Shown: one piece after another, positions 3,404-33,833 of the stretch
Numbering within the stretch: position 1 is the first letter of the stretch
How the letters are laid out: each line of letters begins with the position of its first letter
From: Erysipelatoclostridium sp. An173
Lineage (GTDB): Bacteria; Bacillota_I; Bacilli_A; Erysipelotrichales; Coprobacillaceae
DNA: 64,000 bases
Direction of reading: 5' to 3'
Assembly (NCBI RefSeq): GCF_002160495.1
Contig: NZ_NFKR01000016.1
Span: 1 to 64,000 of the forward strand
Made by a program: the position numbers and the translations under genes
Notes under the pieces: generated by a model
Told to the model about the DNA's origin: nothing
Databases searched by the model: none
Seen by the model: the letters and a program-made list of their open reading frames with translations, nothing else

Positions 3404-3653
3404 TTCCAATCAACCTCCATAAAAAACAAACCAGCCTCAAAATCAAGCATACTATAACACAATTTAAAAAAATGCGCACCATATTTATTATTTTTAACTA
3501 TTAACCCCCTAGAAAAAACATTATCTTCTGTATTTACAACTTAAAATAAGGTAGAATAAAAAAAGAGCTATATATCATAATTTATTCATTTACTAATAAT
3601 AATTTCGTTTGTTTTGTATGAAAATCATACACTAACATATAAAAAATATTAAG
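3404..3653. other. Gene-free stretch between divergent genes, with a palindrome
   Basis: This AT-rich region lies between the phosphatase gene and the pckA leader. The one clear element is the inverted repeat GTATGA-AAA-TCATAC (3616-3630), shortly upstream of the pckA leader. It lies where a promoter spacer would be expected, so it may be an operator, although no convincing -35/-10 pair can be fixed. Confidence 0.35.
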
Positions 3654-15967: not shown

Positions 15968-16693
15968 CTATTTTTCAAATTCATCTTGTTGTAAAATCTG
16001 ATCTAAATAAATATTATTCTCATTTCTAATAAATTTCCAATACTCAACAAAAACATCATTATTACTTTCAATAATCTGATTTTCCTGATCAAGCATCTTA
16101 TCATTCATTTTACCTTCTATATAAACCCAAAAGTAATCCTCATTATTATCAGTACTATCATAAAGATTGACCACATCATGTTTTAATAACTTAATATTGC
16201 TTAATACATTTCTCTGACCTTGAAATTGTTGCCAATTAAGTTTAATTTGCCAGCTTTCATATAAGGATGGACTTAAATATTGCTTTAAAACTTCTAGATT
16301 TTGATTTGACCATGCTTCCTGAATTGCATAATAGCATTTTTCAACCTGTTGTTTTATTCTCTTTTCATTCCAAAAAATATCTTGATCATCTAATATATCT
16401 AAAGTCTCACTAACTTCACGATGCATTATTATAGCTCTTTGTCTTCTTTTGTAAACTGTAAACCCAGCTATTGAGACCATTACTAAACTAAAACCAGCCA
16501 TACTAGCTAATCGTTCAATCGGACTTTGGTTATAGGTACTTCGACCTCTTGTTGTATGGGATGATCTACCTGTTCCACCGCCAGAACTACCTCCAGAGCC
16601 ACCACTTGAGCCACCTCCAGCTCGTGCTAAAACTGGTACTGGGGTAAATATTAATAAAACTAATAAAATTATTATAATTACTTTTTTCTTCAT
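15968..16693 (-). CDS. Secreted or membrane-anchored TIM44-like domain protein
   Basis: This 241-residue protein has a signal peptide (1-23, LIFTPVPVLARA), a Gly/Ser-rich stretch (about 26-45), a transmembrane helix (about 62-82) and a C-terminal TIM44-like (NTF2-fold) domain (about 105-235). That domain is marked by CYYAIQEAWSNQNLEVLKQYLSP and the FWVYIEGKMND strand. Such proteins are often annotated as putative inner-membrane transporters; no activity is shown. It lies downstream of the RNA A module (16741-16862), whose terminator would block read-through, so read-through or a separate promoter is needed. GTGGTGATTAT precedes the ATG. Confidence 0.75.
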   Translation of the reverse strand: MKKKVIIIILLVLLIFTPVPVLARAGGGSSGGSGGSSGGGTGRSSHTTRGRSTYNQSPIERLASMAGFSLVMVSIAGFTVYKRRQRAIIMHREVSETLDILDDQDIFWNEKRIKQQVEKCYYAIQEAWSNQNLEVLKQYLSPSLYESWQIKLNWQQFQGQRNVLSNIKLLKHDVVNLYDSTDNNEDYFWVYIEGKMNDKMLDQENQIIESNNDVFVEYWKFIRNENNIYLDQILQQDEFEK

Positions 16694-16740: not shown

Positions 16741-16826
16741 AAAAGGTAGTGTTACCTACCTTGATGTAGCCAAATAACTATTTTGGGCTGATTGGGTATA
16801 ATAATTGGTATCATTATCTGGCTACA
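16741..16826 (-). ncRNA. Candidate structured small RNA or attenuated leader (module A)
   Basis: Starting at the expected transcription start near 16826, TGTAGCCA pairs with TGGCTACA and the helix extends to about 14 bp (16813-16826 with 16765-16778). A terminator follows (GGTAG/CTACC, 16745-16760, then six T on the minus strand). The transcript would be about 85 nt with no credible ORF. Promoter, 5' hairpin and terminator all resemble module B at 17484-17597. It could be a free small RNA or a terminator-controlled leader for the TIM44-like gene. Confidence 0.5.
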
Positions 16827-16831
16827 AAATG

Positions 16832-16862
16832 ATTATACAAGTTGAAGTTACCTTTAAGGCAA
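16832..16862 (-). promoter_or_regulatory. MerR-type promoter A (19-bp spacer with dyad)
   Basis: On the minus strand TTGCCT (16857-16862) and TATAAT (16832-16837) are exactly 19 bp apart. The spacer holds the imperfect dyad CTTAAAG-GTAA-CTTCAAC. Long spacers with a central dyad are the hallmark of promoters activated by MerR-family proteins, which untwist the DNA. It begins just beyond the stop of the flavodoxin-like gene. Confidence 0.65.
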
Positions 16863-16869
16863 GAACTTT

Positions 16870-17391
16870 TTAATATATCGAAGTCAACCAGCCATCGATA
16901 AACTGATTCATTATTTCTAAATTATTAACATCTTCACTAGTTAACCCTAGTCCTGGTAAGATATTTGCGTTATTAATATACGTACTAGCCTGACTTTCTA
17001 ATAAACTAATTTCATCACTTCCGACAAACAACAATGATACATCTTTATTTTTAAAATCAAATGATTTTAAAGTCTCTTGGATTGTATTGTCAATATTATT
17101 ATTTAAAACTACTATTGTAATAATTATTAAATCATAATCATTTATATCAAGATTATTAATTTCACTTATCAAATGATGATCACTAAGCATTTTTTCATTA
17201 ATAGTTGTTGCTAGTAACTTGGCTGTATCATTATTATCTTCTTGTAAAATTAATATCTGACGATCAAAAGCAGAATCTTCATTTTCGGTTTTTTCTACGA
17301 CTTCTTTTTGATTATCTTGATTATCGTTATTAATATTTATAACTACTCCTACTAATAATAGTAAAATAAGAATTCCTATTAGCTTTTTCAT
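16870..17391 (-). CDS. Exported flavodoxin-like protein
   Basis: This 173-residue protein has one N-terminal membrane helix (1-20), an acidic linker (about 21-42) and a flavodoxin-like alpha/beta domain: strand QILILQEDNNDTAKLLA, then NDYDLIIITIVVLNN, KDVSLLFVGSD and a closing helix. The phosphate loop is not the canonical TxTGxT, so FMN binding is doubtful. There is no lipobox cysteine. It has its own MerR-type promoter at 17411-17441 and a strong AGGAGG site, and lies between RNA modules A and B. Redox or stress function is an inference from this setting. Confidence 0.6.
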   Translation of the reverse strand: MKKLIGILILLLLVGVVININNDNQDNQKEVVEKTENEDSAFDRQILILQEDNNDTAKLLATTINEKMLSDHHLISEINNLDINDYDLIIITIVVLNNNIDNTIQETLKSFDFKNKDVSLLFVGSDEISLLESQASTYINNANILPGLGLTSEDVNNLEIMNQFIDGWLTSIY

Positions 17392-17410
17392 TTTTCTTCC
17401 TCCTATTTTT

Positions 17411-17441
17411 ACTATATTGGTTAAACCATAGTTTAGAGCAA
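17411..17441 (-). promoter_or_regulatory. MerR-type promoter of the flavodoxin-like gene
   Basis: On the minus strand TTGCTC (17436-17441) and TATAGT (17411-17416) are 19 bp apart. The spacer contains the perfect dyad TAAAC-TATG-GTTTA. The gene start is 20 bp downstream of the -10 element, so this is almost certainly its promoter. Confidence 0.65.
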
Positions 17442-17483
17442 GAAATTTTAATATTTTACAAAATTACCCATTTTAATATAAAA

Positions 17484-17597
17484 AAGAAGGAAGTATTACT
17501 TCCTTGAAAATCTATATCTAATAGTAAAGCACCAAAATGACAGATTGATATTTTTATAAGAAAGGAAAAGCGCTACATTTTAGCTATTTTACTACAC
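17484..17597 (-). ncRNA. Candidate structured small RNA or attenuated leader (module B)
   Basis: From the expected start near 17597, TAGTAAA pairs with TTTACTA, and after a small internal loop CTAAAATG pairs with CATTTTGG, leaving a loop of about 36 bases. Downstream, AAGGAAGTA pairs with ACTTCCTT and a T-rich tail follows (17515 to 17480). It parallels module A in promoter, 5' hairpin and terminator (shared TCAAGGxAGGTAA-type start). The length is about 114 nt, with no ORF carrying a ribosome site. Confidence 0.5.
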
Positions 17598-17603
17598 AGC
17601 CAT

Positions 17604-17634
17604 ACTATATAACTTAAAGTAAACTTTAAGTCAA
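17604..17634 (-). promoter_or_regulatory. MerR-type promoter B (19-bp spacer, perfect dyad)
   Basis: On the minus strand TTGACT (17629-17634) and TATAGT (17604-17609) are 19 bp apart. The spacer carries the perfect inverted repeat CTTAAAG-TTTA-CTTTAAG. As I recall it, this matches the CTTAAAG-N4-CTTTAAG operator described for the AdhR/NmlR branch of MerR regulators. The -35 element overlaps the stop codon of the HAD gene. Confidence 0.75.
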
Positions 17635-18220: not shown

Positions 18221-19549
18221 TTAAACTAACTGCCTATTCATCCACTTACCACTAAAATAACGCCAGATAAAGAAGACGCAGCGAACTATCCAGTCAACAA
18301 ACATCGCTAACCAGACCCCAATTAAACCTAATCCTAAATGTTGTCCTAAAACATAGCTTAAACAAAATCTAAAAATCCACATTGAAGATGCTGAAACAAT
18401 CATTGTAAACTTAGCATCATTGCTAGCCCGTAAAGCATTAGGGAAAGTAAATGAAGCTGGCCAGATCGTTGCAGCAAAGAAACCATGTAAAAAAATACAT
18501 TGATAAGCAAGATCGATCGTTTGTTCAGACAAAGAATATAATTTTAAAATTGTCGGTGTCGCTAATAATACTAAAATTACAGCAGAAATAGTCGCTAAAT
18601 AAGTGATTTTCAATAATTTTTTGATATAATACTTAGCCTGTTTATAATCATTAGCACCGACACACTGTCCTACTACAGTAACCATCGCTAATGACATCGC
18701 CATTCCAGGAATAATTTGCATTTGTGCTAAATTATTAGAAACGGCATTAGCAGCAATTGCATAAGTTCCAAATGTTGCTACTAAACTTTGAACTAATATT
18801 TTACCAAATTGGAACATCCCGTTTTCTAAACCAGATGGAATCCCAATAGTTAAGATTTTCTTGATATAAACTAAATCGAACTTCCAATGACGATAATCAT
18901 CGACATAAAGATTATTATCTTTATTTGTAAGACATTTCAAAATTACAATACAACAGACCATTCTAGCGATCAATGTCGCTAACCCAGAACCTAAAACTCC
19001 TAATTTTAAACCAAAGATGAAAATTGTATTAAAGATAATATTGATAACATTCATGATTGCACTAGTAATCATTGAAATCTTAGAATTACCAATTGCTCTA
19101 AATAAAGCGGCCCCAGAATTATATAAAGCAATAAATGGATATGATAGTGCTGAAACTAGAAAGAAAGTTTCGGCATTATTCATAACGCCACTATCTACAT
19201 TACCAAAAGCCAAATGTAATATTGAAGTATTAAACAACAATATTACCCCCATAATGATCAAGGATAGAATTGCTGTTATTAATAATAACTGTTTAGCTGA
19301 AAAACGCGCTTTTTCAAGTGAACCTTGCCCAATAAACTGTGCCGCAACTACAGCACCCCCAGTACCTAAAGCGGCAAAGATATTAATTAATAAAACATTG
19401 ATTGAATCAACTAGTGAAACTGCAGAAACAGCTGCTTCCCCAACACTAGAGACCATGATCGTATCACAAAAGCCAACTAGAATTACTAATAATTGTTCAA
19501 TCACTAGTGGTATGATCAGCTTTTTTAATGCCTGATTTGAAAACATCAT
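18221..19549 (-). CDS. MATE-family efflux transporter
   Basis: This 442-residue protein has twelve predicted membrane helices in two six-helix halves, each starting with the family pattern (IPLVIEQLLVILVGFCDTIMVS, and the second half after about residue 225). MATE proteins export cationic drugs or metabolites against Na+ or H+. Two ATGs (19549, 19546) follow GGGGG; either could be used. It is the first gene of a pair with the HAD protein. An antisense frame over 19017-19535 is a shadow. Confidence 0.92.
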   Translation of the reverse strand: MMFSNQALKKLIIPLVIEQLLVILVGFCDTIMVSSVGEAAVSAVSLVDSINVLLINIFAALGTGGAVVAAQFIGQGSLEKARFSAKQLLLITAILSLIIMGVILLFNTSILHLAFGNVDSGVMNNAETFFLVSALSYPFIALYNSGAALFRAIGNSKISMITSAIMNVINIIFNTIFIFGLKLGVLGSGLATLIARMVCCIVILKCLTNKDNNLYVDDYRHWKFDLVYIKKILTIGIPSGLENGMFQFGKILVQSLVATFGTYAIAANAVSNNLAQMQIIPGMAMSLAMVTVVGQCVGANDYKQAKYYIKKLLKITYLATISAVILVLLATPTILKLYSLSEQTIDLAYQCIFLHGFFAATIWPASFTFPNALRASNDAKFTMIVSASSMWIFRFCLSYVLGQHLGLGLIGVWLAMFVDWIVRCVFFIWRYFSGKWMNRQLV

Positions 19550-32330: not shown

Positions 32331-32396
32331 ACTCTATGTTCCTCCTTTTGGTTCATTATATATATTCAAGCAAACTCTAAGTCAACTCTTATTTTA

Positions 32397-33702: not shown

Positions 33703-33731
33703 TTTACATTTTTTAATAAATTTTTTATAAT
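33703..33731 (+). promoter_or_regulatory. Promoter of the fluoride-riboswitch transcript
   Basis: TTTACA (33703-33708) and TATAAT (33726-33731) are 17 bp apart. Transcription would start near 33738, at the first base of the riboswitch. Confidence 0.75.
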
Positions 33732-33737
33732 ATCATC

Positions 33738-33833
33738 TGGGAATGAGGTTCTCCCGAGGTATAAACCTAAACCGCTTATTAAAGCTGATGACTTCTACGA
33801 CTTTTTCGTCGTGGAGGAAATCAGCTTTTTTTA
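33738..33833 (+). ncRNA. Fluoride (crcB-class) riboswitch with overlapping terminator
   Basis: The aptamer (33738-33799) shows the crcB signature: GGGAATGAGGTTCTCCC, then AAACCGCT, then AGCTGATGACTTCTAC. GAGGT can pair with ACTTC to form the family pseudoknot. An extra AGGT-ATAA-ACCT hairpin is inserted after the first stem. The expression platform is a terminator: GCTGAT and CTTCTACGAC (33784-33802) pair with GTCGTGGAGG and ATCAGC (33809-33825), followed by seven T. Fluoride binding would hold the aptamer and let transcription reach the antiporter gene. Confidence 0.92.

Follow-up and report, generated by a model that had tools for sequence, protein, structure and literature searches.

Stress regulators such as Fur and the sigma factors often have small-RNA (sRNA) arms. 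In low-GC Gram-positive bacteria the usual pairing part of an sRNA is a C-rich single-stranded region that meets the G-rich Shine-Dalgarno sequence, as in IsrR and FsrA (PMC9410917). FsrA of Bacillus and IsrR of Staphylococcus are stress-regulated short RNA genes with an intrinsic terminator and a C-rich single strand presumed to base-pair with Shine-Dalgarno sequences (PMC9410917), and both are Fur-controlled. MerR promoters require a spacer of 19-20 bp (PMC9909328), and in the NmlR/AdhR and SoxR regulons a spacer of this length holds a dyad and the promoters serve oxidoreductase and detoxification genes (PMC9909328). In a limited search of the open-access literature no sRNA under a MerR-type promoter was found described. 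Rli51 of Listeria is described as a terminated 5' leader with a second role as an sRNA in trans (PMC11394854).

Two minus-strand modules, A (16741-16862) and B (17484-17634), were analysed within the window, i.e., the whole stretch of 64,000 nucleotides under study. Like FsrA and IsrR they appear as short, stress-regulated RNA genes with an intrinsic terminator and a C-rich single strand; unlike them they have a MerR-type promoter, consist of one main hairpin plus the terminator only, and match no Rfam family, both modules giving chance-level matches only at gathering as well as at loose thresholds. Their regulon resembles those of NmlR/AdhR and SoxR in its spacer, dyad and gene content but differs in that the promoter type here also precedes two predicted non-coding transcripts. 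For RNA A, Rli51 may serve as a model, although promoter, host and sequence all differ. Judging from the sequence, we consider it fairly probable that A and B are sRNA genes (~85 and ~114 nt) induced through a redox or electrophile regulator of the MerR family that resembles NmlR/AdhR, and that the RNAs pair through their loops. Most likely they are a small pair of sRNAs, restricted to this lineage and not listed before, within a MerR regulon. Should this be borne out, the MerR redox/electrophile response of Thomasclavelia, common bacteria of the human gut, would gain an RNA arm; sRNA biology in these bacteria seems, to our knowledge, almost unstudied.

MerR-type promoters and the genes they precede

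Promoter A (16832..16862, minus strand) consists of TTGCCT and TATAAT separated by a 19-bp spacer with the imperfect dyad CTTAAAG..CTTCAA, and is kept in the Thomasclavelia genomes G007 and G005. Promoter B (17604..17634, minus strand) combines TTGACT and TATAGT with a 19-bp spacer holding the perfect dyad CTTAAAG..CTTTAAG, and is identical to its G007 counterpart at 26/31 positions. The spacer is likewise 19 bp at an additional MerR-like promoter that the first-pass annotation had overlooked (17411..17441, minus strand; TTGCTC-19-TATAGT, four mismatches to the pattern) immediately 5' of a 173-aa ORF and ~20 nt ahead of its ribosome-binding site, so that all three sites follow the MerR rule of 19-20 bp. 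At the four-mismatch level the reversed control of the window held no dyad-promoter site; with at most three mismatches the pattern returned only A and B in the whole window, and none in 100 shuffles. The minus-strand promoters with a 19-bp spacer and CTTAAAG-type dyad reported by the first-pass annotation are thus present in both modules, and their assignment to the MerR type is supported by the spacer length and by a dyad common to other regulon sites. The same regulon has a further dyad promoter of MerR type in the window, at 32355-32385 (minus strand), where it precedes an ORF that resembles a RibD/DHFR-type reductase.

In the window's genome the first dyad-promoter pattern gave nine sites against none in the reversed control, and a slightly relaxed pattern gave 71 sites in nine Thomasclavelia genomes against five in the reversed control, the palindromic operator within the spacer being common to the modules and the other regulon members. 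The genes located 3' of the sites in the window's genome, named by Pfam, encode aldo/keto reductase, MerR, DUF362, DUF3842, flavodoxin, MATE and endonuclease/exonuclease/phosphatase proteins. Sites of other species precede short-chain dehydrogenase-like and alcohol dehydrogenase-like ORFs (named by sequence inspection), and in several cases across the genus a MerR gene itself lies 3' of such a site; about ten MerR-type genes are present in the window's genome. Control of the regulon (aldo/keto reductases, SDR, flavodoxin, Fe-ADH, DUF362, DUF3842, MATE) by a redox or electrophile signal, as in the NmlR/AdhR and SoxR group, is likely because this gene set fits such a signal. Of the redox or metal induction proposed earlier the redox part is accordingly favoured by the regulon genes, while the set contains no hint of metals.

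Nearly all dyad-promoter sites are followed by an ORF start after ~15-60 nt. A hairpin and terminator in place of the ORF were found only in RNA modules A and B and their relatives; the nearest exceptions come from G007 and G005, where one or two leaders of aldo/keto reductase genes have a terminator-like hairpin ahead of the start codon. These hairpins lie between the MerR promoter and the reductase gene (L130, G007:C74:37621-37720; L129, G005:C20:11788-11856), and the L130 leader also opens with a GTAG stem; the window's genome has a comparable reductase (L166) that is not preceded by such a hairpin. An aldo/keto reductase gene ahead of a MerR gene (L090, 1910-2913) looks frameshifted after 68 codons, which may be a real lesion or an assembly error.

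Structure and conservation of the two modules

The hairpin of RNA A (16766..16825, minus strand) begins with GUAGCCA six bases past the -10 element, has a 14-bp stem with the closing arm UGGCUAC, and carries the C-rich loop CCCAAUCAGCCC; its terminator (16743..16762, minus strand) reads AAGGTAG-loop-CTACCTT and is followed by a T tract. The folding z-score of A is -5.06, and the expected 5' end at ~16825/6 coincides with the hairpin base, which gives an RNA of ~85 nt. Compared with G007, the window's hairpin is identical at 57/60 positions, the promoter at 26/37 and the TIM44-like protein encoded nearby at 66%. In the terminator, one A-U pair of the window reads U-A in both G007 and G005, and in the G005 hairpin a basal C-G pair is replaced by U-A and the upper stem is divergent. 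Across species the loop is predicted to be single-stranded and C-rich (CCCAAUCAGCCC / UCCAAUCAUCC). Module A lies 5' of a TIM44-like exported protein gene (15968..16693, minus strand) in three Thomasclavelia species, ~45 nt ahead of it in the window and close ahead also in G007 and G005; the TIM44-like identity of this gene, recognized by the first reading, agrees with a Pfam Tim44 match. The module is absent before the TIM44-like genes of Faecalibacillus and of one related MAG, and when 43 family genomes were searched with covariance model R1, nearly all matches apart from A were MerR promoters that belong to protein genes.

The hairpin of RNA B (17521..17595, minus strand) runs from GUAGUAAA, which starts eight bases past the -10 element of promoter B, to UUUACUAU and encloses the pyrimidine-rich loop UUUUCCUUUC; the G007 and G002 copies keep this register and span and contain covarying pairs. 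The terminator (17487..17505, minus strand) is AAGGAAG-loop-CTTCCTT followed by a T tract, the folding z-score is -2.10, and the expected 5' end at ~17595/7 again falls on the hairpin base (length ~114 nt). Since the expected 5' ends of both RNAs coincide with their hairpin bases, the lengths of ~85 and ~114 nt predicted before appear right. B was recovered in G007 with an E-value of 5e-9, and because the G007 contigs carrying A and B share an exact overlap of 120 bases the two modules are neighbours there, with an Rpn/YhgA-like gene between them. The G002 copy of B was returned by a second model (E=0.0019) with a score derived mostly from the promoter; independent support comes from its position directly after the MATE ortholog, the same 61-nt span inside the stem, a terminator, and a fold z-score of -6.94. 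Its loop is pyrimidine-rich (UCUCUCCCAAU), and the predicted single-stranded loop of B is pyrimidine- or C-rich across species (UUUUCCUUUC / UUUUCCUACCC / UCUCUCCC). The stems, whose loss in relatives was to have counted against structured RNAs, are therefore kept for A in G007 and G005 and for B in G007 and G002. As the folds are kept in close relatives, the modules probably constitute a small, previously undescribed regulatory RNA family.

The interval between B and A is a turnover spot. In the window it holds the 173-aa ORF (16870..17391, minus strand), which has a signal-anchor start and is predicted to be exported, and in G007 the Rpn/YhgA-like transposase-family gene stands there instead. 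The ORF gave no Pfam match at E<=0.1 and no convincing PDB sequence match, which leaves its former description as flavodoxin-like unsupported. On the other side of B lies a MATE transporter gene (18221..19549, minus strand), whose ortholog has a MerR-promoter RNA module 3' of it in four species: immediately in G005 and G002, past a HAD gene in the window, and farther away in G007. The MATE site is without a module in five of the nine Thomasclavelia genomes, and in the rest of the family no post-MATE module was found beyond G000, G005, G002 and G007, several stretches ending too early to judge. Elsewhere in the window a fluoride riboswitch (crcB motif) was detected at 33730-33804 (plus strand) with 51.7 bits, well over the gathering score.

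Modules A and B share, as had been described, the order of promoter, hairpin from the expected start, and terminator. The GUAG stem begins 6-8 nt past the -10 element in all six modules, and at 4-9 nt past it GTAG is present in 6/6 modules and in 3/85 of the remaining sites. When the basal stem was compared across A and B, all sequences kept 7/7 pairs, and pairs 5 and 6 were changed on both sides; with the arms joined via an artificial linker, the covariation score from four distinct sequences was reached by 16/500 shuffles, the covariation being slight because only four species are represented. The pyrimidine-rich loop is often followed by AAAAU. Paralogy at the level of primary sequence was rejected, the RNA bodies being at shuffle level in most comparisons. 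The terminators of A and B are similar in the window (p 0.008), and the comparison A_G000-B_G007 is marginal (p 0.048); the orthologs show neither similarity. The family reading therefore draws on a stem that starts with GUAG and covaries, on the type of loop and on the common locus, not on the sequence of the RNA bodies. The earlier description of the modules as paralogous stands to that extent, and that of related terminator stems holds for the window but not for the orthologs. A relation between A and B is weakly indicated, and we grade it as likely, not as proven, because the shared features were picked after the data were seen.

Proposed function and alternative readings

That A and B encode free-standing inducible sRNAs draws on the promoter class and regulon, the hairpins and terminators, their conservation, the lack of a conserved ORF, and the G002 copy, which has no gene to lead. 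The first-pass annotation had also considered terminator-controlled leaders. In such a case the gene further along would be transcribed from the MerR promoter, with read-through limited or timed at the terminator and a short RNA possibly released. That A, and perhaps B, are leaders of this kind we regard as rather unlikely. The proposal would agree with the position of A, which in three species lies close ahead of the TIM44-like gene as expected of a leader, and with the G007 and G005 reductase hairpins described above, yet no alternative antiterminator pairing is apparent, Faecalibacillus TIM44-like genes lack A, and a downstream gene in the same transcript does not accompany all occurrences. 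The ORF 3' of B differs in G007, and in the window the MerR-like promoter at 17411-17441 separates B from the next ORF. In G002 a convergent gene faces the end of the B copy, which therefore cannot be a leader there. Because of this convergent gene and the intervening promoter in the window, B is better read as a free-standing RNA gene, and the leader proposal is unlikely for B. Since the TIM44-like gene is always found 3' of A, A could also act as a terminated leader.

It is very unlikely that the modules are remnants, i.e., once MerR-regulated genes worn down to promoter and terminator with no present function; the patchy distribution (the MATE-linked module occurs in 4/9 species of the genus) would fit such decay, but a hairpin identical at 57/60 positions next to a protein of 66% identity, together with the compensatory changes, speaks against it. 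Even less credible is that they encode very short stress peptides. Module A of the window contains a 20-codon ATG ORF (MIPIIIPNQPKIVIWLHQGR) whose first 17 codons are similar in G007, but it has no Shine-Dalgarno sequence, extends across the terminator in G007 and lacks an ATG in G005, the substitutions agree with the helix, and B in the window is without any ORF of at least 8 residues. The view that neither module holds a convincing ORF was borne out, as the peptides are not conserved.

The reading as inducible sRNAs, with MerR-type promoters and structured non-coding RNAs, is thus the one that we favour. We infer that both modules are transcribed and act in trans on target mRNAs: a redox or electrophile signal would be sensed by an NmlR/AdhR-like MerR activator, which would turn on RNA A and RNA B alongside the reductase, flavodoxin and efflux genes of the same promoter type. 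The GUAG stem would lock the 5' end of each sRNA and the intrinsic terminator its 3' end, leaving the apical pyrimidine/C-rich loop exposed. Because C-rich single-stranded regions pair with G-rich Shine-Dalgarno sites in IsrR and FsrA, the most likely partners of the exposed loop are the Shine-Dalgarno regions of target mRNAs, whose translation would be blocked as in FsrA or IsrR. It is quite possible, and we suggest it tentatively, that the GUAG-stem RNAs are an undescribed sRNA family forming the post-transcriptional arm of the MerR redox regulon, in which a single regulator would raise reductases and efflux via the promoters of their mRNAs and simultaneously silence other mRNAs by way of two C-loop sRNAs. 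Precise predicted 5' ends, lengths and loops are now given for testing.

In searches for targets, sequences exactly complementary to the A loop lay inside genes and at no ribosome-binding site, and no target site near start codons was conserved. Loop duplexes with 47 start regions paired better than with coding segments, composition-shuffled loops performing nearly equally, and mean loop pairing was within composition expectation in four of five loops. Third best of the 47 starts for the RNA A loop core, a rank that chance may also produce, is a start region, GGAGGTTGATTGGAAATG, that belongs to a histidine-phosphatase-like gene (minus strand, near 3418) and is nearly complementary to the conserved core CCAAUCA.
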